From Natrinema ejinorense (GTDB lineage Archaea > Halobacteriota > Halobacteria > Halobacteriales > Natrialbaceae): 64,000 nucleotides of DNA. Below are positions 39,885 through 60,782 of this stretch, one piece after another (position 1 is the first letter of the stretch; each line of letters opens with the position of its first letter). Made by a program: the position numbers and the translations under genes. The notes under the pieces were generated by a model. That model worked only from the letters and a program-made list of their open reading frames with translations, had not been told where the DNA came from and searched no databases. The stretch lies in the NCBI RefSeq assembly GCF_002494345.1, contig NZ_NXNI01000002.1:248001-312000 (forward strand). Direction: 5' to 3'.

Positions 39885-40475
39885 TCAGACGAGGAGTTGG
39901 ACGTCGGATTCGGCCATGTGTTGCAACGCGGTGGCCGCACCGACGCCGGTGGTGACGCCGTCGTAGAAGTCGTCCTCGTCGTAGTCCATCAACTCGATCG
40001 TCATCTGACAGGCCTGCAGGTCCACGCCGCTTTCCAGCGAGAGGTCGATCAGTTCCTCGATGGTCGCCGTCCCGTTCTCGTCGATCTTCTTTTGCATCAT
40101 CTTCGTGGCCATCGCGTCCATGCCGGGGAGCGCAGCGAGGGCGTTCGGGACCGGCATGTTCGGGTTCCCGACGGCGCTCAGTTTGAGGTTCGACGACTTC
40201 TCCTCGTGGAGGATGTCGAGCCCCCAGAACGTATGGAAGACGACGACATCCCAGCCGAATGCGGCCGCAGTGCTCGCGAGGATCAAGGGCGGATACGCCA
40301 TGTCGAAACTGCCCTGCGTGGCGACGATGGTCATCTTCTTTTGATCGTCGCCCGTCTCCACCGCTGCCATCGACGCTTCCAGTTCCTCGACGCGCTCGCG
40401 CAGGGCCTGCACCTCGGCGGCGTCGACGTCCGCATCGGCATCGTCGACGGACGCCGCTGGGTTGTCCGTACTCAT
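39885..40475 (-). CDS. DsrE/DsrF/DrsH-like (peroxiredoxin-like) sulfur-relay protein
   Basis: 196 residues from ATG 40475. An acidic N-terminus and coiled segment (18-42) precede the DsrE fold: TIVATQGSFDMAYPPLILASTAAAFGWDVVVFHTFWG. The conserved Cys is C156 in LQACQMTIELM. DsrE-type proteins pass persulfide sulfur to TusA or store it on that Cys. The ATG overlaps the last base of the upstream tusA stop codon, which fits the common TusA-DsrE pairing. Confidence 0.85.
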   Translation of the reverse strand: MSTDNPAASVDDADADVDAAEVQALRERVEELEASMAAVETGDDQKKMTIVATQGSFDMAYPPLILASTAAAFGWDVVVFHTFWGLDILHEEKSSNLKLSAVGNPNMPVPNALAALPGMDAMATKMMQKKIDENGTATIEELIDLSLESGVDLQACQMTIELMDYDEDDFYDGVTTGVGAATALQHMAESDVQLLV

Positions 40476-40720
40476 TATTCCGTCTTCTTCACGTAGTGGG
40501 TGTAGAGATCGTCGCCCTCGACCTGCTCGAGGAGTTCGACGCCGTTGGTGCCGTCGGCCCACCCCTGAATGTCGCTTATGCTGCCCGAATCCGTCGCGAC
40601 GACTTCGAGCACGTCGTCGGGCTCGAGGTCGTCGATCGCTTGCTTGGTCTTCACGATGGGCATCGGGCAGGACTGTCCTTTCACGTCCAGCGTCTCAGTG
40701 ATCTGGTATTCCGAACTCAT
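40475..40720 (-). CDS. tusA: TusA-like sulfurtransferase
   Basis: 81 residues with the TusA/SirA fold. Active C18 is in GQSCPMPIVKTK (CPxP box). It accepts a persulfide and hands it to a partner, here probably the DsrE-like protein encoded directly downstream. TATA-like CCTTTTATG (minus strand, 40772-40780) lies about 52-60 nt before the ATG. Two copies of the 10-bp palindrome flank that box. Confidence 0.9.
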   Translation of the reverse strand: MSSEYQITETLDVKGQSCPMPIVKTKQAIDDLEPDDVLEVVATDSGSISDIQGWADGTNGVELLEQVEGDDLYTHYVKKTE

Positions 40721-40963
40721 GATTTCCTTCTGTGCCCCGTATTGGAGCTATTACACAATATCGCTCGCTCCCATAAAAGGGCATCGATTATTGTACAATA
40801 TACAAACATCCGGAATCGCCAAAATCAACGTAACTAGTTTCTATCGCCTGTGTTCGCGCATACCGCTGCTACCTATGAATTGAGTGGGTAGCTGTATTGT
40901 GGAATATGGGAAATACTATACAAACTCTTAAGTGCCAGCAGCCGATACTGGGAACTGTACAAC
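40721..40963. promoter_or_regulatory. Divergent promoter with four palindromic ATTGTACAAT-type sites
   Basis: Sites: ATTACACAAT (40750-40759, near the start of the leftward transcript), ATTGTACAAT (40790-40799, perfect, beside the leftward TATA), ATTGTGGAAT (40896-40905, about 20 nt upstream of the rightward TATA candidate CTTAAG at about 40926) and ACTGTACAAC (40954-40963, abutting the ATG of the fusion gene). Such placement next to TATA boxes and transcription starts is typical of operators for archaeal HTH regulators. The TrmB-like protein at 57245 is the favoured cognate. Confidence 0.65.
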
Positions 40964-42157
40964 ATGGACGACATGGACTTTCCAACGCCGGATGTCGAGA
41001 TCGAATCGGTCAGTCCTGACGAGCTGAAGGGCCGAATCGACGCGGGCGAGGACATCACCCTCCTCGATACCCGCATGGAATCGGAGTACGACGAGTGGCG
41101 AATCGACGGTGCAACCGTCGAATCGATCAACATTCCGTATTTCGAGTTCTTGGACGACGAGATCGACGACGACGTTCTTGCACGGATTCCCGACGACCGC
41201 GAGATTACGGTCCTCTGCGCGAAGGGCGGCTCGAGCGAGTACGTCGCCGGGACGCTAAAAGAGCGCGGCTACGACGTCGACCACCTCGAGGACGGGATGA
41301 ACGGCTGGGCGCGCATCTACGAGCGCGTCGCAGTCGAGCGCTACGACGGGAGCGGGACGCTCTACCAGTACCAGCGCCCCTCGAGTGGCTGTCTGGGCTA
41401 CCTCGTCGTCGACGGGGACGAGGCTGCCGTGATCGATCCGCTGCGCGCGTTTACGAGTCGATACCTCGAGGACGCGGACGAGCTGGGCGCTGACCTGCAG
41501 TACGCGATCGACACGCACATCCACGCGGACCACATCTCGGGGGTTCGCGCCCTCGATGCCGTCGGCGTCGAGGGCGTCATCCCCGAGGCGTCGGTCGACC
41601 GCGGCGTCACGTACGCCGACGAGATGACCCTCGCGGCGGACGGCGACGAGTTCCAGGTCGGGTCGGCGACGATCGAGACCGTCTCCACGCCCGGCCACAC
41701 CTCCGGGATGACCTCGTACCTGCTCGACGGCTCGCTGCTCGCGACGGGTGATGGCCTGTTCGTCGAGAGCGTCGCCCGACCCGACTTAGAGGAGGGCGAC
41801 GACGGCGCTCCCGAGGCGGCCGCGCAGCTCTACGAGTCCCTGCAGGAGCGCGTGCTGACCCTGCCCGACGACACGCTGATCGGCGGTGCGCACTTCAGCG
41901 ACGCGGCCGAGCCCGCCGCCGACGGCACCTACACCGCACCGATCGGCCAGCTCACGGAGGAGATGGACGCCCTGACGATGGACGAAGCCGAGTTCATCGA
42001 GCTGATCCTCTCGGATATGCCGCCTCGGCCGGCCAACTACGAGGACATCATTCCGACGAACCTCGGTCAGCAGGAGGCCGACGACGAGGAGGCGTTCGAA
42101 CTCGAGCTCGGCCCGAACAACTGTGCCGCGAGCCAGGAGTCGCTCGCCGGTGACTAA
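40964..42157 (+). CDS. Rhodanese-metallo-beta-lactamase fusion (persulfide dioxygenase-like)
   Basis: 397 residues. An N-terminal rhodanese domain (about 10-125) has the active loop CAKGGS with C85. A metallo-beta-lactamase domain follows: THIHADH with H185, H187, D189 and H190, then H245 in STPGHTSGM, D263 in ATGDGLF and H310 in IGGAH. These iron- or zinc-binding positions match ETHE1-type persulfide dioxygenases, which oxidise glutathione persulfide to sulfite. The domain order is reversed from human-like fusions. In haloarchaea the thiol carrier would be gamma-glutamylcysteine or CoA, which is inference. Confidence 0.88.
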   Translation: MDDMDFPTPDVEIESVSPDELKGRIDAGEDITLLDTRMESEYDEWRIDGATVESINIPYFEFLDDEIDDDVLARIPDDREITVLCAKGGSSEYVAGTLKERGYDVDHLEDGMNGWARIYERVAVERYDGSGTLYQYQRPSSGCLGYLVVDGDEAAVIDPLRAFTSRYLEDADELGADLQYAIDTHIHADHISGVRALDAVGVEGVIPEASVDRGVTYADEMTLAADGDEFQVGSATIETVSTPGHTSGMTSYLLDGSLLATGDGLFVESVARPDLEEGDDGAPEAAAQLYESLQERVLTLPDDTLIGGAHFSDAAEPAADGTYTAPIGQLTEEMDALTMDEAEFIELILSDMPPRPANYEDIIPTNLGQQEADDEEAFELELGPNNCAASQESLAGD

Positions 42158-42163
42158 TCCCCA

Positions 42164-42721
42164 ATGGTAGCTGACCCAGTCCCACTCCAGTTGACCGCCG
42201 AGCTGTTCCCCAACGGGATCAGCCGCTACGCAGTCGGCGGGTTCCTCGTCGGTCTCGGCACGGTCGTGATCTACGTCGGAACCGGCATCCCGGCCGGGGC
42301 GAGCACGTTCCTCGAGTCGACGCTGTCGTACGTCTCCGGACAGTCGCGGTTCCAGCAGTACGTCTCGTCCCGGGACTGGCGCGTCGTGTTCACGCTCGGG
42401 ATCGTCCTGGGTGGGCTAGCGTTCGCGGCGACGGTCCAGTCCGGAGTGATCACGACCTCGCTCTACGAAGCCGGGACGACCGGCGAGCTATACGAGGTCG
42501 GCGGCGTGACGCTCTGGTCGACCGACGTGCAGGCCTGGCGGCTGCTGGTCGGCGGCGTCTTCGTCGGAATCGGCACCCGAATCGGCAAAGGGTGTACGTC
42601 GGGCCACGGCGTCTGTGGCGTCGGCTCGGCATCGAAGACCTCGCTCGTCGGCGTCGTGACGTTCCTGACAGTCGCGATCGTGACCGCTCAGATCGTCGCG
42701 GCACTGGGGGTGAGTCCGTAA
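42164..42721 (+). CDS. YeeE/YedE family sulfur-transport protein, first half
   Basis: 185 residues with about five membrane segments. The family signature is GIGTRIGKGCTSGHGVCGVG (about residues 133-152), with a conserved Cys that relays sulfur. In TsuA the Cys track carries thiosulfate through the membrane. The stop codon overlaps the next gene's ATG (TAATG). The two half-proteins probably dimerise into the equivalent of one full-length YeeE. Confidence 0.9.
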   Translation: MVADPVPLQLTAELFPNGISRYAVGGFLVGLGTVVIYVGTGIPAGASTFLESTLSYVSGQSRFQQYVSSRDWRVVFTLGIVLGGLAFAATVQSGVITTSLYEAGTTGELYEVGGVTLWSTDVQAWRLLVGGVFVGIGTRIGKGCTSGHGVCGVGSASKTSLVGVVTFLTVAIVTAQIVAALGVSP

Positions 42722-43179
42722 TGGCGGATCGCCATCCCCTGTTCATGCCGCTGATCTTCGTCGGCGGCCTGATCTTCGGGTTCGGCCTCGGCTTCAGCCA
42801 GATGGCGCGCCCGGAAGTCGTGTTGAACTTCCTGCAGTTCGAGGACTTCGGACTGCTGTTCGTCATGTTCGGCGCGGCGATCGTCTCCGGGATCGCCTTC
42901 GCCGTGATGCCCCGGATCCGAGACAGCGCGCCGCTGACGGGCGACCGGTACGAACGCCGGCTGAAGCCGTTCGATCGGAACGTCCTGATCGGCGGCGGGA
43001 TCTTCGGCGTCGGCTGGGGACTCTCGGGGATCTGCCCCGGCGCGGCCTACGCCAGCCTCGGCGTCGGCAACGTCACCATCCTGTGGGCGCTCGCCGGCAT
43101 GTTCGCCGGCGCCTACCTGCAGGGCGTCTGGCGCAGCAAGCGCGCCGCGGCCGAAACCGCCCCGACGGGTGCCGACTGA
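42721..43179 (+). CDS. YeeE/YedE family sulfur-transport protein, second half
   Basis: 152 residues with about four membrane segments. PLIFVGGLIFGFGLGFSQMARPEVVLNFLQFEDFGL starts the protein, and GWGLSGICPGAAYASLG (about residues 99-115) carries the matching Cys motif. The pair with 42164 appears in many haloarchaea as YeeE/YedE small subunits. Probable thiosulfate or sulfane-sulfur uptake for the rhodanese fusion upstream. Confidence 0.88.
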   Translation: MADRHPLFMPLIFVGGLIFGFGLGFSQMARPEVVLNFLQFEDFGLLFVMFGAAIVSGIAFAVMPRIRDSAPLTGDRYERRLKPFDRNVLIGGGIFGVGWGLSGICPGAAYASLGVGNVTILWALAGMFAGAYLQGVWRSKRAAAETAPTGAD

Positions 43180-46102: not shown

Positions 46103-46543
46103 TTACGCGTGTTGTTCGATCAGGCCCTCGAGGGTCGCACGATCCTGGACGCCGACCGTGCGCTCGACCGGCTGCCCGTCGGCGTAGAGGACGAGCGTCG
46201 GGACGCCACGCGCGCCCAGCTGCTGGGCGATCCGCTGGTGACGGTCGACGTCGACCGTCGCGACGGCAGCGTCGGTCTCCGCGGCGAGGGCCTCGATCGT
46301 CGGCTCGAGCATCTGGCAGGGGCCACACCAGTCGGCGTAACAGTCCACGAGGACCACGTCGTGCTCGTCGACGACCTCGTCGAGGTGACCCTGTCCCGTG
46401 ATCGCGATCGGCTCGTCGGGCGCGTCGCCTCCCTCGTCCGCGTCGGGCGCGTCGAGACTCTCGCCGTTCTCGAGGCGTTCCTGTAACTCTCGTTTCTTCT
46501 GCTCGCGGATCCGCTGTCGTTCCTCGTCTGCAGTGTCGCTCAT
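46103..46543 (-). CDS. trxA: Thioredoxin with N-terminal coiled segment
   Basis: 146 residues. A charged N-terminus (MSDTADEERQRIREQKKRELQERLENG) resembles PDCD5-like helices. The thioredoxin fold covers about 45-146 with redox site ADWCGPCQMLEPTI and cis-Pro in GVPTLVLY. It reduces protein disulfides and could recycle persulfide enzymes. Promoter: TATA-like TTATAAC (minus strand, 46568-46574), with TTTGTGCAAC at 46578-46587 abutting it upstream. Confidence 0.92.
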   Translation of the reverse strand: MSDTADEERQRIREQKKRELQERLENGESLDAPDADEGGDAPDEPIAITGQGHLDEVVDEHDVVLVDCYADWCGPCQMLEPTIEALAAETDAAVATVDVDRHQRIAQQLGARGVPTLVLYADGQPVERTVGVQDRATLEGLIEQHA

Positions 46544-46961: not shown

Positions 46962-47201
46962 ATGACAGAGACACCCAAACCGGACGTAACGATCGACTCG
47001 CGCGGCGCAACGTGTCCCGGCCCGCTGATGGACCTCATCGGGACGGTGAAGACCCTCGACCCCGGCGTAGTGGTCGAACTTCGGACCACCGCACGGAACT
47101 CCACGACGGACGTTCCGGAGTGGCTTGAGGAGGCCGGCCACGAGTTACTCGAGATCGAGGAGCGCGACGACCACTGGAACATCTACCTGGAGGTCGACTG
47201 A
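46962..47201 (+). CDS. tusA: TusA-like sulfurtransferase (second copy)
   Basis: 79 residues. Active C18 is in GATCPGPLMDLIGT (CPxP). TusA proteins relay sulfur from persulfides; here the downstream gene is a sulfide:quinone oxidoreductase, whose product is sulfane sulfur. Only 1 nt separates its stop from the next ATG. It differs from the first copy mainly in the CPGP versus CPMP box. Confidence 0.9.
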   Translation: MTETPKPDVTIDSRGATCPGPLMDLIGTVKTLDPGVVVELRTTARNSTTDVPEWLEEAGHELLEIEERDDHWNIYLEVD

Positions 47202-47202
47202 G

Positions 47203-48345
47203 ATGCACCGAATCGCGATCGTCGGCGGCGGAACTGGTGGGACGGTCCTCGCGAACCGACTCGCGGACGAGCTACAGGGCGAGATCGAGGCCGGCGAGGT
47301 CGAGGTCCGACTGATCACGGCCGATCCGAACCACGTCTACAAGCCGACGTTCCTGTACGTGCCCTTCGGGAAGAAGACGGTCGACGACGCGAAACGGCCG
47401 ATCGAGGAGCTGGTCGACCGCCGCGTCACCCTGACGATCGACGAGGTCACCGGCATCGATACCGATCGCAAGCGCCTGTCGCTCGCCGACAGGACGACCT
47501 CGCTGCGCTACGACCAACTCGTGGTCGCGACCGGCGCGACCCTCGAGCCGGAGGCCGTGCCGGGCCTCGCCGAGGCCGGCCACCACTTCTACGGCCCCGA
47601 CGGTGCCGAACGACTCCGGGACGAACTGGCCGACTTCACCGAGGGCCACCTCGTCCTGAGCGTCGTCGGCGTGCCACACATGTGTCCGGCCGCGCCCGTC
47701 GAGTTCACGCTGATGGTCGACGACTGGCTCCGCCAGCGGGGTCGGCGCGAGGACGTCGACGTTACCTACACGTACCCGATCAACCGCGCCCACGGCCTCG
47801 AGTCGATCGCCGACTGGGCGACCGACCTGTTCGAGGAACGCGACATCGCCCTCGAGACGTTCTTCAACGTCGACGAGGTCGACCCCGACGCGGAAGTCAT
47901 CGGAACGGTCGAAGGGAACGAACTCGAGTACGACCTGCTCGTGGCGATCCCGCCCCACCGGGGCAGCGACCTCGTGACCGACGCGGGGCTCGGCGAGGAC
48001 GGCTGGGTCGACGTCGACAGGCACACGCTCGAGGCGACGGCGGCCGAGGACGTCTCCGCGATCGGCGACGCCGCGGACGTCCCGACGAGCAAGGCCGGCA
48101 GCGTCGCCCACTACGAGGCGGGCGTCGTCGCCGATCGGCTCGCCAGCCGCGCCCGCGGAGAGACGCCGACGGCGACCTACGACGGGAAGACGGTCTGCTT
48201 CCTCGAGGCGGGGATGGACGAGGCGACGTTTATCGAGTTCGAGTACGGCGAGGAACCGTTCGTCCGCGAGCCATCGAAAGCGCTCCACTGGGCGAAGCTC
48301 GGCTACAACGAGTCCTACTGGCTCACCGCACGGGGGTTGCTCTAG
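47203..48345 (+). CDS. sqr: Sulfide:quinone oxidoreductase
   Basis: 380 residues from ATG 47203. N-terminal FAD dinucleotide-binding motif GGGTGGTVLANRL (8-20), second FAD motif VVATGATLEPEAVPG, and a C-terminal FAD strand VSAIGDAADVPTSKAGS. Two Cys fit the catalytic disulfide: C161 in HMCPAAPVEF and C332 in TVCFLEAG; the third Cys of some SQR types is absent. SQR oxidises H2S at the membrane and feeds menaquinone, so cytochrome bd downstream could be the electron exit. A peripheral membrane role is expected. Confidence 0.88.
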   Translation: MHRIAIVGGGTGGTVLANRLADELQGEIEAGEVEVRLITADPNHVYKPTFLYVPFGKKTVDDAKRPIEELVDRRVTLTIDEVTGIDTDRKRLSLADRTTSLRYDQLVVATGATLEPEAVPGLAEAGHHFYGPDGAERLRDELADFTEGHLVLSVVGVPHMCPAAPVEFTLMVDDWLRQRGRREDVDVTYTYPINRAHGLESIADWATDLFEERDIALETFFNVDEVDPDAEVIGTVEGNELEYDLLVAIPPHRGSDLVTDAGLGEDGWVDVDRHTLEATAAEDVSAIGDAADVPTSKAGSVAHYEAGVVADRLASRARGETPTATYDGKTVCFLEAGMDEATFIEFEYGEEPFVREPSKALHWAKLGYNESYWLTARGLL

Positions 48346-48987
48346 ATGGCCGACACCGAACCCGCGCCCGACTCAGAGACCGCCGACGCCGGGGACCCGA
48401 CGCTCGAGGAACTCGTCGCCGACAACCCCGAGGAAGTCGCCCGGTTCCTCGAGCGTATCGATGTCGTCAACGACCTGCTCGACACCGCGGACCTCGCGAC
48501 GGCCGCGATGGACGACCGCATGGTCCAGGACCTCTCCGGCACGGCGACGAACCTCGGGGCCGCGGCGGACGGGCTGGCGACCGACGAGGTCGCAGCCCTC
48601 GGCGAGGCGACCGGCGAGAACGCCGACGACCTCGCCGACGCGATCGAGGCACTCGCTCGCCTGCAGCGATCGGGGACGCTCGACGACCTCGTGGCGATCG
48701 CGGACGTCGCCGCGCTCGGCTCGTCCGCGATGGACGACGGGATGGTGACCAAACTCGCGGCGACCGGCACCAGTCTCGGCGAGGTGGCTGACACCGCGGC
48801 CGACGACGACGTCGCCCGCACGCTCGAGGCGGTGCTCGGGGCCGTGGGTGAAGCGGGTGCCGAACCGACGAAACCCATCGGTGTCCGCGGGCTGGTGCGT
48901 GCCCTCCGAGACCTCGACGTCCGGCGGGGCCTCGGGTTCGTGATCGCCGTCGCTCGCAAGACGGGGCGGCGGCTGCGGAAGCGGTGA
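48346..48987 (+). CDS. DUF1641 protein, SQR partner
   Basis: 213 residues, acidic and Ala-rich with helical repeats, ending in a basic tail. The DUF1641 region includes KPIGVRGLVRALRDLDVRRGLGFVIAVARKTGRRL. It starts directly after the SQR stop. DUF1641 genes accompany SQR in many prokaryotes, presumably for membrane attachment or assembly; the role is not demonstrated. Confidence 0.85.
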   Translation: MADTEPAPDSETADAGDPTLEELVADNPEEVARFLERIDVVNDLLDTADLATAAMDDRMVQDLSGTATNLGAAADGLATDEVAALGEATGENADDLADAIEALARLQRSGTLDDLVAIADVAALGSSAMDDGMVTKLAATGTSLGEVADTAADDDVARTLEAVLGAVGEAGAEPTKPIGVRGLVRALRDLDVRRGLGFVIAVARKTGRRLRKR

Positions 48988-55594: not shown

Positions 55595-55954
55595 ACCGTT
55601 CGTAGGACGTGACGCCATAATATTGTTTGGGTGGGTCAATACTAGCGTCGAATTATCGGTTGCGGGCGAGCCGTTCAACGAGTCCGACGGTCGGTACGGT
55701 AGTTGTAATGTTATTGTTGTATCGTGAGGGTAGTGTCATCTATTCGTCCCAACCGCGCCCCAGAAGCAGAGCCCGATGTCTGGGGGATTTCTGTATCGGT
55801 ATAACTTATTCGAATATTCCCGTTGGATAGCCGTGAGATAGACGGCAGTAATATTGTGCGCTATTCCCAAAAGTGTTATAGCCATCCTCCGGATAGACGA
55901 TACTGAGCAGAAATCCATGACCCGAACACAACTGCACGGCGGAGGTCGATCCCG
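55595..55954. promoter_or_regulatory. Control region of the DUF7512-TauE operon
   Basis: 360 nt. Half-palindrome ATTGTGCGCT (55853-55862) lies 13 nt before a TATA-like GTTATAG (55875-55881); the ATG is about 75 nt further, so a short leader is expected. No other gene is credible. Confidence 0.5.
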
Positions 55955-56101
55955 ATGATCGACCTCGCAGCGTATTCACCAGCGGTACAGGCAGGCGCAC
56001 TCGTCGGCGTCGTCCTCCTCGAAGCGGTCGTCCTCTACGTGGGGTACGGCGCCTTAGAGCAGGTCGCAAAACCACTCGTCGAACGGATCACTCACACATA
56101 G
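55955..56101 (+). CDS. DUF7512-like membrane microprotein
   Basis: 48 residues: one long helix from about residue 10 to 33 (VQAGALVGVVLLEAVVLYVG) followed by a basic/acidic tail LEQVAKPLVERITHT. Its stop is directly followed by the TauE/SafE-family start. From memory, this kind of short protein precedes such exporters in haloarchaea, so it may be a subunit or assembly factor. Confidence 0.75.
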   Translation: MIDLAAYSPAVQAGALVGVVLLEAVVLYVGYGALEQVAKPLVERITHT

Positions 56102-57142
56102 ATGGAACTCTTTGGAATCGCACTGACGATGCTCGCGTTGTTCGTGAGCTTCGGCTTCATGGTCGGGGTGTTGTTCGGCTTCTTCGGCATGGGTGGTTCG
56201 TTCCTCGTCACACCCGCGTTACTCGTGATGGGGTACCCCACCCGCGTCGCCGTCGGTAGCGGCATGGCCTTCGTCTTCGGGACGGCCGTTATCGCGACGC
56301 TGAAACACCGCGACCTCGGGCAGGTCGACTACAAACTCGGCGGCCTGATGGTCGTCGGAACGACCGCAGGTATCGAAGTCGGTAGTCACCTGGTGTACTA
56401 CCTCGAAGAACTCGGACTCGCAGGCGGCGTCATCGGCGTCACGTACGTCTTCCTGCTGGGCGGTATCGGGGTGTTCGTCACCTACAACGCGCTGAAGGCC
56501 GACGGATCCGACGACAGCGGCGGCGGCCACCACGAGGCCGCGACCCAGGAAATCGACCCGAACGACATCCCGGACATCGCAAAGAAGATCCAGTCCTACA
56601 ACGTCCCGCCGATGATGACCCTTTCGGGCGGAATCGAGGTGTCGCTGTGGATGATCCTTGGCGTCGCGTTCGCCACGGGACTCCTCTCGGGCTTCCTCGG
56701 CGTCGGCGGCGGCTTCATCCGCATGCCCGCCCTGTTCTACCTGATCGGCGTCCCGGTGCCGATCGCGGTCGGGACCGACCTGTTCGAGATCGTCATCTCG
56801 GGGGGCTTCGGTGCGTACACCTACGGTCTCAACGGGGGCGTCAATCTCTCGATCGTCGTCCCGCTGCTGGCCGGGAGCGCACTCGGTGCCCGTATCGGCT
56901 CGGCAGCGACCAGCGTCGTCAACGAGGACGACATCAAGATCTACTTCGGGCTGATGCTCCTGGGTGGATCGGTCGCCGTCGCCTTCCAGCAGTCGGCCGG
57001 CTACCTCGGCATGCCGGTGCTCGACACGATCGGGTTCGTCCTGATCATGCTCTCGGCGTTCATGGTCAGCGGGGCCGTGATCTACAACACGATCACGACG
57101 ATGCGAGCGCGGTCGAACGCGTCCGCGCCGTCTGCGGACTGA
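56102..57142 (+). CDS. TSUP family (TauE/SafE) sulfite/organosulfur exporter
   Basis: 346 residues with about eight helices in two repeats. Each repeat has the glycine-rich motif: GVLFGFFGMGGSFLVTPALLVMG (about 21-43) and GLLSGFLGVGGGFIRMPALFYLIG (about 196-219). A soluble loop of about 40 residues (DGSDDSGGGHHEAATQEIDP) joins them. TauE/SafE members export sulfite or sulfoacetate, fitting removal of sulfite produced by a persulfide dioxygenase. The promoter carries a half site of the sulfur-locus motif. Confidence 0.9.
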   Translation: MELFGIALTMLALFVSFGFMVGVLFGFFGMGGSFLVTPALLVMGYPTRVAVGSGMAFVFGTAVIATLKHRDLGQVDYKLGGLMVVGTTAGIEVGSHLVYYLEELGLAGGVIGVTYVFLLGGIGVFVTYNALKADGSDDSGGGHHEAATQEIDPNDIPDIAKKIQSYNVPPMMTLSGGIEVSLWMILGVAFATGLLSGFLGVGGGFIRMPALFYLIGVPVPIAVGTDLFEIVISGGFGAYTYGLNGGVNLSIVVPLLAGSALGARIGSAATSVVNEDDIKIYFGLMLLGGSVAVAFQQSAGYLGMPVLDTIGFVLIMLSAFMVSGAVIYNTITTMRARSNASAPSAD

Positions 57143-57244
57143 CACTGGCGACGCCGCTCGCTCCCTCCTGCTCTCGGCTCATCGACATTGTACAATATTC
57201 ACACAACCCTTATACCGCCGCGGTCCCTACCCCGAGACAGTAAC
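57143..57244. promoter_or_regulatory. Promoter of the TrmB-like regulator, with perfect ATTGTACAAT palindrome
   Basis: The palindrome at 57187-57196 is identical to the one at 40790-40799. Thirteen nt downstream is the TATA-like CTTATAC (57209-57215), and the ATG at 57245 follows about 30 nt later. This implies that the regulator is controlled by the same operator as its supposed targets, possibly autoregulation. Confidence 0.6.
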
Positions 57245-57652
57245 ATGGCTAACTCGATGGCAGAACAACTGCAACAGGACATGGAATGCGAAGGGCTCCT
57301 GGAGTGTATCCACGGGCTCAAGCAACTCGACAAGGAGTGTTTCCGCGTGATGGTCGAGAGCGAGGACGCACTGACGATCGACGAAGTCGCCGAGCGGGTC
57401 GACCGCGAGCGCTCGACCGCGTACCGTTCGATCCAGCGGTTGCTCAAGAGCGGCTTCATCCAGAAAGAGCAGATCAACTACGATCAGGGCGGCTACTACC
57501 ACGTCTACTACCCGACGGACCCGACCCAGATCGCAAACGACATGCAGCGAAAGCTCAACGACTGGTACGCGAAAATGGGGCAACTCATTCAGGAATTCGA
57601 GGACAAGTACGAACACGCCGAGTCCGACACCGAAATTCCTGCGCAGAGCTAG
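57245..57652 (+). CDS. TrmB/MarR-like HTH regulator with N-terminal cysteines
   Basis: 135 residues from ATG 57245. Cys15, Cys21 and Cys32 cluster near the N-terminus (MECEGLLECIHGLKQLDKECF). The winged helix follows: ALTIDEVAERVDRERSTAYRSIQRLLKSGFIQKEQ with wing YDQGGYYHVYYP, and a C-terminal helix for dimerisation (QIANDMQRKLNDWYAKMGQLIQEFEDKYEH). It lies beside TauE and the second thioredoxin. The thiols could sense sulfane sulfur or redox state; this is inference. Confidence 0.8.
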   Translation: MANSMAEQLQQDMECEGLLECIHGLKQLDKECFRVMVESEDALTIDEVAERVDRERSTAYRSIQRLLKSGFIQKEQINYDQGGYYHVYYPTDPTQIANDMQRKLNDWYAKMGQLIQEFEDKYEHAESDTEIPAQS

Positions 57653-57868: not shown

Positions 57869-58240
57869 TTACTGCGCCGCGTGCGTCTTGAGTGCGTCCA
57901 CGAGCGTTTCGGCGGACTGGAAGCCGTCGTCGAAGCGGGCGACTTCCGCGCCGTCTTTCAGGACGACGAGCGTCGGGACGCTCTGGACGTTGAACTCGGC
58001 AGCGAGGTCGGGGACGAGACCGGCGTTCACGACCGCCACGGCACCCGGAGCGCTACGGGCGACACCTCCGAGCACCGGCTCCATCGACGCGCAGATGCCA
58101 CAGCCGGACGTGACGAACTCGAGCAGGACGAGGTCGCGCGTCTCGAGCAGTTCCTCGTAGTCGGACGGGTCGTTCAACTGAACGGGCTTTCGGCTCGCGC
58201 GGCCATCGTCGGTCGGCTCCGAAGCGGTCGTTTCGGTCAT
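57869..58240 (-). CDS. Thioredoxin family protein, CGIC type
   Basis: 123 residues from ATG 58240. FVTSGCGICASMEPVL contains CGIC instead of CGPC; the cis-Pro loop is SVPTLVVLKDG. This variant suggests a different redox potential or role in sulfur transfer. Promoter: ACTGTGCAAT at 58283-58292 abuts TATA-like GTATACAAAAC (minus strand, about 58272-58282). Confidence 0.85.
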   Translation of the reverse strand: MTETTASEPTDDGRASRKPVQLNDPSDYEELLETRDLVLLEFVTSGCGICASMEPVLGGVARSAPGAVAVVNAGLVPDLAAEFNVQSVPTLVVLKDGAEVARFDDGFQSAETLVDALKTHAAQ

Positions 58241-59790: not shown

Positions 59791-60585
59791 TTACGCGCCG
59801 TCCCGTCGGGACCCCGGCGAGCCGCCGTCGGCGACGAGCGCCGACCGCTCCCCAGTCGCGAGCGAGCGCGGGGGTCGGTACGCACACCGCTGGTCGGGGT
59901 AGTACCGCTGTGCGAGGACCTTCGCGGCGTTGGAATCCGCGTCGACCGTCTCGACGCGACAGTTCGGGTTGGTACAGCGGAACGTCTCGTGCAGCGGTCG
60001 GTCGCCGATGACGCCACAGCCGTGACACTCCTGGGAGGAGTAGGCGACGGGCACCGTCGTGGCCTCGAGGCCGTACTCGGCGGCGACCGCGCGCAGGCGC
60101 AGATGGGCCGTCGGGAGCAGCCACGCCGTGCCGCGGTGGGCGTTCGGATCGGTCAGCCACGCCCACAGGTCCGGCTCGTAGTGGCTGTCCTCGGTGACCA
60201 GCACGGGGCGGTCGTACGCGCTCGCGTAGTCGCAGATCTCCCGCGCCGCGTCGTCGAGGGCCTCGAGTAGGGCACCCCGACGGCGTCGGACGCGTGCGAC
60301 GATCGTCTCGCGATCGGCGTCGCCGGCGAGCAGTGCGGCGACGCGGTCGCGAAGCGCGTCGAGGCGAGCGCAGAGGTCGTCGCCGGGGATCGCGTAGGCT
60401 CCCTTCCAGTCCGGCATGGACACCGGACACGCGGTGTAGAGGGTGTGTTCCCCGAGGTCGACGCCGATCGCGGTGCGGTCGGCGGGACCGGTGGCGGCTG
60501 GGGTGTTCTCGCGGCCAGTCGACTGGCCGGCTGTACGGTCGTCTGTGGAGCAATATTCATTGCCCCTCGAGCGTTCGGTTCGCAT
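59791..60585 (-). CDS. Minimal TnpB-like RuvC-domain protein with zinc ribbon
   Basis: 264 residues from ATG 60585 (start uncertain; the frame stays open to 60714). The RuvC parts are all there: GVDLGEHTLY with D43, VLVTEDSHYEPDL with E132, a zinc ribbon CHGC/CTNPNC (C187, C190, C204, C209) and VDADSNAAKVLA with D215/D217. The N-terminal region (WED/REC-like, about 170 residues in IS200/IS605 TnpB) is reduced to about 36 residues. So it may be a nuclease or a domesticated derivative, not a transposon copy: no TnpA, no left or right ends and no omega-RNA were recognised. Its partner may be the coiled-coil protein downstream. Confidence 0.75.
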   Translation of the reverse strand: MRTERSRGNEYCSTDDRTAGQSTGRENTPAATGPADRTAIGVDLGEHTLYTACPVSMPDWKGAYAIPGDDLCARLDALRDRVAALLAGDADRETIVARVRRRRGALLEALDDAAREICDYASAYDRPVLVTEDSHYEPDLWAWLTDPNAHRGTAWLLPTAHLRLRAVAAEYGLEATTVPVAYSSQECHGCGVIGDRPLHETFRCTNPNCRVETVDADSNAAKVLAQRYYPDQRCAYRPPRSLATGERSALVADGGSPGSRRDGA

Positions 60586-60782
60586 GGTCGGACCCTCGTG
60601 CAGAGGATGACCCGACCCCGGCGTGCTAGGGACACGTCGGACCTTTTGGTCCGAAAGGGCGGGTCGACTGGGCATAGAATCCCATCTCATAAATAGCTTC
60701 CTAACGGTTCGCAATCAATTGCTAACGGTGTGACCACATATTAAAACGATAGAGAACCGTTATCGGACGTATCGGTAGACCT
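60586..60782. promoter_or_regulatory. Divergent promoter between TnpB-like and HTH genes
   Basis: 197 nt. AT-rich segment CATATTAAAACGATAG at about 60736-60751, 32-47 nt before the HTH ATG, holds a TATA candidate. An imperfect repeat AACGGTTCGCAATC/TTGCTAACGG near 60701-60727 could bind the HTH protein. Confidence 0.4.

Follow-up and report, generated by a model that had tools for sequence, protein, structure and literature searches.

A two-cysteine TrmB-family regulator of Natrinema ejinorense as a candidate sulfane-sulfur switch

What does a small winged-helix regulator, encoded directly behind a sulfite exporter gene in a haloarchaeon, respond to? The initial annotation of this locus pointed to three cysteines placed ahead of the winged helix and to a perfect palindrome in the gene's promoter, and suggested a sensor of sulfane sulfur. 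In the literature we searched, no haloarchaeal regulator of sulfane-sulfur or persulfide handling was found; the protein is one candidate for such control, and it comes with a defined predicted operator, a short list of genes and two specific residues. The DNA analyzed here (“the window”) comprises bases 248001-312000, i.e., 64 kb of a 416-kb contig (C2), and genome-wide scans covered the 4.48-Mb genome; the features discussed are collected in Table 1. Judging from sequence comparisons, the regulator probably switches the cell's response to sulfur stress. Its best explanation, to which we assign a probability of roughly 0.6, is a dimeric two-Cys thiol-switch transcription factor of the arCOG02242 type that controls itself and a sulfane-sulfur regulon, with C32 as an accessory residue.

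Table 1. Genes and predicted operator sites in the window (positions counted from its first base).
Feature	Position	Strand	Remarks
TusA (40478-40720) and DsrE-family protein (39888-40475)	39885..40720	-	PF01206, PF13686
ATTGTACAATAT	40790..40801	+	TusA/MBL-rhodanese divergent intergenic region
Weaker operator-like site	40899..40931	+	MBL-rhodanese promoter; matrix score 23.7
Metallo-beta-lactamase + rhodanese protein (MBL-rhodanese), persulfide-dioxygenase-like	40964..42157	+	PF00753, PF00581
Two sulfur transport proteins, YeeE/YedE-type	42164..43179	+	PF04143
Second thioredoxin (Trx2), CGPC	46103..46543	-	PF00085, 2.5e-24
Operator-like TATTGGACCTGTTGCACAAAA	46577..46597	-	Trx2 promoter
TusA2 - SQR-like flavoprotein - DUF1641 operon	46962..48987	+	weak operator-like match upstream (46847)
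Operator-like TATTGTGCGCTATTCCCAAAA	55852..55872	+	48-aa/tauE operon promoter
Conserved 48-aa membrane-like protein before tauE	55955..56101	+	conserved frame
TauE/SafE-type sulfite exporter family protein	56102..57142	+	PF01925, 2.5e-41; directly upstream of regulator
Putative operator ATTGTACAATATTCACACAA	57187..57206	+	regulator's own promoter
Regulator gene (REG)	57245..57652	+	135 aa; single winged helix, TrmB/Lrs14-type; C15, C21, C32
Thioredoxin-like protein, CGIC motif	57869..58240	-	PF00085, 3.3e-13; convergent with regulator
Operator-like TATTGCACAGTGTATACAAAA	58273..58293	-	thioredoxin promoter

A cysteine pair in a small TrmB-family protein

The regulator frame is a genuine gene, with an ATG start and conservation from the first residues onward in 184 distinct homologues, and its translation carries the three cysteines at the positions originally annotated. 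The protein matches the TrmB profile (PF01978; 4.4e-15, 55.7 bits against a cut-off of 25.6) and thus belongs to the TrmB family, although not to its two-domain sugar sensors: after the wing there is only a C-terminal helix, without a ligand-binding domain. The NCBIfam scores lie below the curated cut-offs both for Sta1 (75.0 vs. 80) and for Lrs14 (46.1 vs. 90); by the curated cut-off rule the regulator is, at the level of its sequence, a relative of Sta1 and Lrs14 that stands outside both.

Conservation singles out two of the cysteines. The homologue set comprises 199 genes encoding 184 distinct haloarchaeal proteins, and every one of the latter (184/184) has C15 and C21, which are invariant also in an 83-sequence alignment. 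C32 is found in 158, with V, I or S elsewhere; missing from 26 of the 184, it was rejected as part of the sensor core, so that the annotated set of three shrinks to a core of C15 and C21. Much the same applies next to sulfur genes: in the 90 homologues with TauE, MBL-rhodanese, YeeE, TusA, DsrE or SQR genes within 6 kb, C15 and C21 are present throughout (90/90), while C32 is kept in 80. The loss of cysteines in such neighborhoods, named in the initial annotation as refuting its proposal, is not seen for these two.

A phylum-wide profile search recovered more distant homologues (about 22-36% identity), which we label methanogen and Archaeoglobus-like from their sequence and context. Nearly all of them keep C15 and C21, two of only about 13 near-invariant columns in the alignment; neither C32 nor H23, the latter near-invariant in the haloarchaeal homologues, is kept. 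For comparison, OxsR (HVO_2970) of Haloferax volcanii is a single winged-helix TrmB protein of arCOG02242 and a proven hypochlorite thiol sensor (mBio 2022, PMC9426492). Adding OxsR-type sequences to the alignment leaves just two invariant columns, C21 and G82; C15 is then near-invariant, and the sequences without it are mainly of the OxsR and MM_1094 types. In a tree, limited by few alignment columns and long branches, a branch separates the two-Cys proteins from the OxsR types (95/78 support; 94% of bootstraps). The retention of the pair in distant homologues, taken with this split, indicates from sequence that C15 and C21 mark a subfamily older than the haloarchaea.

The AlphaFold model (pLDDT 89; the N-terminus was weak in the first model and improved with a more diverse alignment) predicts a short helix at residues 15-23 that carries both C15 and C21, a winged helix at 27-90, and a long C-terminal helix beyond. 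The placement of the cysteines ahead of the winged helix therefore holds for the pair, but C32 lies in helix 27-38, the first of the domain itself. Among solved structures the best match is 3R0A (Z 13.2, rmsd 2.6, 118 aligned residues), the Methanosarcina mazei protein MM_1094, followed by 1SFX and then by AbfR2 (6CMV). 3R0A is reported to contain two inter-subunit disulfides, C6-C17' (PMC9426492), and its C17 aligns with C21 of the regulator; its other cysteine differs in lying about five residues further N-terminal than C15. Since a bond between residues i and i+6 of a helix would require its unwinding, a link of C15 and C21 between subunits is the natural reading of the model.

A rare operator and a conserved neighborhood

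The palindrome described in the regulator promoter is indeed there, as ATTGTACAAT at 57187-57196, with a TATA-like CTTATA just downstream at 57209-57214. The window has exactly two copies of it, and three matches if one mismatch is allowed, a number reached by none of 100 shuffles; the TusA-DsrE promoter has it in common with the regulator promoter. The conserved operator exceeds this palindrome, consisting of TTGYRCAA and a downstream YRCAA half-site that abuts the BRE/TATA region. We trained a matrix on the homologues' promoters from other genomes, with the window's own excluded, and scanned the 64 kb with it. The top distinct sites fall at the promoters of the thioredoxin (58267), the regulator (57180), 48aa/TauE (55846), Trx2 (46571) and MBL-rhodanese (40899), and when the operator part of the matrix is used by itself, the TusA/MBL-rhodanese intergenic region comes out on top. 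The tauE gene sits within an operon, and the motif is absent directly before the gene itself. The match at the SQR operon is weak, which counts against the best explanation.

A 13-codon open reading frame (MTRTQLHGGGRSR; 55917-55958, forward strand) overlaps the 48-aa gene ahead of tauE by ATGA, and a similar short peptide (M-x-R-T-Q...GGR) recurs ahead of the 48-aa gene in most other loci; it is possibly a translationally coupled leader. A Pfam scan of the frame adjacent to the 48-aa gene gave no match. Elsewhere in the window, a 307-aa frame on the reverse strand (59791-60714) has a Cas12f1-like/TnpB C-terminal domain (PF07282), apparently without a full-length TnpB, and may be a transposon remnant.

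Genome-wide, the operator is rare. ATTGTACAATAT has exactly two copies in the 4.48 Mb, one at the regulator promoter and one between the divergent TusA and MBL-rhodanese genes. A strict 17-bp inverted repeat with TATA gave zero matches genome-wide because the second half-site is imperfect in the Natrinema genome, and a looser spacing pattern was therefore adopted: TATTG-N11-CAAAA has exactly three matches, all at predicted regulon promoters in the window, and as it was chosen after these three sites had been seen, the informative part is the zero further matches in the other 4.4 Mb. The operator 22-mer with up to three mismatches matches six times in the genome, five times at regulon promoters and once in transposase-like sequence (C2:394228), which we judged to be chance. 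One of the five is a near-perfect operator elsewhere on contig C2, beyond the window, at the promoter of a thioredoxin/thioredoxin-reductase (TrxA-TrxB) operon (C2:360553-360574; L290 1500-2946). The predicted regulon comprises the regulator, the TauE exporter, MBL-rhodanese, YeeE importers, TusA/DsrE carriers, three thioredoxins and thioredoxin reductase.

Among 150 non-redundant regulator promoters, TTGYRCAA is found in 56 (0.6 expected), TTGYR-N7-YRCAA in 55 (0.2 expected) and TTGYR-N9-YRCAA in 70 (0.2 expected), and 123 of these promoters carry the motif. In other genomes counterpart promoters have it at 48aa/TauE (28/35), Trx (9/11), Trx2 (8/17) and TusA (14/43); it is found in none of 101 upstream regions of genes where it was not expected (YeeE1, YeeE2, DsrE, PHO4, cydA, Usp, HTH10, SQR). 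The MBL-rhodanese promoters of other genomes have only weak sites, with 3 of 39 above threshold, and this counts against the best explanation.

The neighborhood was sampled at 138 regulator loci with 5.9 kb either side. At least one of TauE, MBL-rhodanese, YeeE1/2, TusA, DsrE, SQR and DUF1641 lies within 6 kb in 90 of them and three or more sulfur genes in 51; sulfur genes or a thioredoxin are nearby in 104, and in 50 loci the regulator directly follows TauE or YeeE2 on the same strand. The same count for the OxsR paralogue gives sulfur genes at 0 of 17 loci (Fisher p about 1e-7, a guide only, the loci not being phylogenetically independent). Two observations count against a sulfur reading: no sulfane-sulfur gene lies within 6 kb of the regulator in 48 of the 138 loci, and the distant homologues adjoin thioredoxin rather than sulfur genes. 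The Archaeoglobus-like genomes have a thioredoxin gene that adjoins that of the regulator or lies not far from it, in the same orientation; one of these cases also includes a glutaredoxin-like and a radical-SAM gene.

As separate observations, glutaredoxin-like, thioredoxin, radical-SAM and two-Cys regulator genes have an operon-like arrangement in Archaeoglobus-like loci (L237 4000-5750; L234, L236, L241), and at two further loci (L242 and L246) SQR-DUF1641-DsrE genes adjoin that of a diverged paralogue of the regulator, which keeps C15 and C21 and has V in place of C32.

The proposed switch and its alternatives

At the level of sequence, a conserved Cys pair, a rare shared operator and a conserved neighborhood are established, and the sharing of the operator points to control of the regulon by the regulator. 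Conservation, neighborhood and operator together give the protein two hallmarks of the sulfane-sulfur-responsive class: a Cys pair and an association with sulfur-oxidation and carrier genes. In the proposed switch, per- or polysulfide, the most likely signal, would build up and react with C15 and C21. The subunits would become linked C15-C21' or C21-C21', possibly via inserted sulfur, and this link would alter operator binding; the induced enzymes would then oxidize, carry, export or reduce the sulfur, and thioredoxin would reset the switch. The position of the downstream half-site, next to the BRE or overlapping it, tips the balance slightly toward a repressor that is released and away from an activator.

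The strongest argument for sulfane sulfur rather than a general oxidant is the gene set: with MBL-rhodanese, TusA, DsrE, YeeE and TauE as well as thioredoxins, it matches bacterial circuits. In Streptomyces, CsoR controls PDO, rhodanese and TauE (PMC7533328), and YrkD in Bacillus controls DsrE, TusA, TauE, thioredoxin, SQR and PDO (PMC9918477).

Disulfide stress is the main rival to this signal, and OxsR, the closest relative that has been characterized, is the strongest argument against sulfane sulfur. The regulator would then be an OxsR-like switch for general thiol oxidants (hypochlorite or disulfide stress), its sulfur genes being induced through oxidant thiol damage. C21 aligns with the sole N-terminal Cys of the OxsR-type protein, OxsR has been proven to need C24 and, as a hypochlorite sensor, also targets thioredoxin and thioredoxin-reductase genes (PMC9426492), both of which recur in the predicted regulon, and thioredoxin is the conserved neighbor of the regulator in the Archaeoglobus-like genomes. 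However, OxsR lacks C15, its paralogue loci are devoid of sulfur genes, its motif is CG-rich, and the same genome has a separate OxsR-type gene (L002); moreover, TauE, MBL-rhodanese, YeeE and TusA/DsrE are part of the predicted regulon, whose sites include none at a catalase, peroxidase or glutaredoxin gene. We consider this explanation unlikely, though the most serious of the alternatives.

Less probable still, the operator could serve another regulator, for example a general sulfur or anaerobiosis factor, and the present protein would regulate something else. The link between protein and motif is a predicted one, but the high frequency of the motif in the regulator's own promoters speaks against such a division of roles. 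So does co-occurrence: 12 regulator-bearing genomes have 50 motif matches vs. 11 for the reversed control, and nine genomes without the regulator have 5 vs. 14, a comparison confounded by clade and because genomes lacking the regulator tend to lack the cluster too. Separately, a same-species genome (G024) has neither the regulator nor operator-like matches and probably lacks contig C2.

A metal sensor binding Zn, Cu or Cd through C15, C21, C32 and H23 would suit the three cysteines and the histidine of the haloarchaeal proteins, but we rejected such a site and regard this reading as highly improbable, since H23 and C32 are not kept in the distant homologues, C32 is dispensed with even in some haloarchaea, and no metal transporter genes are in the predicted regulon.

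Returning to the sulfane-sulfur switch, a broader proposal seems to us evenly balanced: that the two-Cys TrmB/Lrs14 clade (haloarchaea, methanogens, Archaeoglobus-like) is a thiol-switch family whose haloarchaeal branch senses sulfane sulfur and, from a lineage unrelated to CstR/SqrR, commands the enzyme set of these bacterial regulators, its subunits being joined through two Cys that share one helix. Should the sulfane-sulfur switch be real, a widespread, uncharacterized group of small archaeal regulators would gain a testable function, and the TrmB lineage of archaea would have arrived on its own at the way in which bacteria sense persulfide.

Relation to known regulators

OxsR shares with the regulator its arCOG, the small dimer type and a Cys in the N-terminal helix, but has one Cys rather than two, responds to hypochlorite and uses a different, CG-rich motif. 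The regulator is not its orthologue: besides the separation of the two-Cys branch, the likely OxsR orthologue in the same genome is L002, which is about 26% identical and adjoins a threonine-synthase-like gene. HVO_1360 of H. volcanii, a small arCOG02242 protein with C15 and C21 that is 28% identical to OxsR, has been put forward solely as a potential partner of OxsR in a heterodimer, with no link drawn to sulfur (PMC9426492, the only literature we found on this protein); it is probably the Haloferax counterpart of the regulator.

The bacterial CstR, CsoR and YrkD proteins likewise have two reactive Cys and control PDO-rhodanese, TauE, TusA, DsrE, thioredoxin or SQR genes, but they have the CsoR fold, unrelated to the winged helix modeled here with 3R0A as its nearest structure. 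The ArsR-family regulators SqrR, BigR, sHdrR and SoxR come closer in form, sharing a winged helix, two Cys, a sulfane-sulfur response and sulfur-oxidation target genes. Their cysteines, however, are far apart (50 and 116 in sHdrR) and joined within one protomer, by a tetrasulfide in the SqrR/BigR type, whereas the regulator has its pair in one short N-terminal helix at a spacing of x5, and matches the TrmB profile with no ArsR profile listed. SurR of Thermococcales is an archaeal winged-helix protein that responds to elemental sulfur via Cys oxidation of a CxxC switch (PMC12162507); it differs in having this motif in an ArsR-like N-terminal domain and in controlling hydrogen and sulfur reduction. 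Given this precedent, archaeal sulfur-responsive thiol switches are already known, and the convergence put forward in the initial annotation is fair with regard to CstR and BigR/SqrR but is narrowed by SurR and by OxsR, a thiol sensor of the same arCOG. By analogy, then, the regulator would act most like CstR and SqrR while belonging to neither family, a relative of OxsR and not its orthologue.
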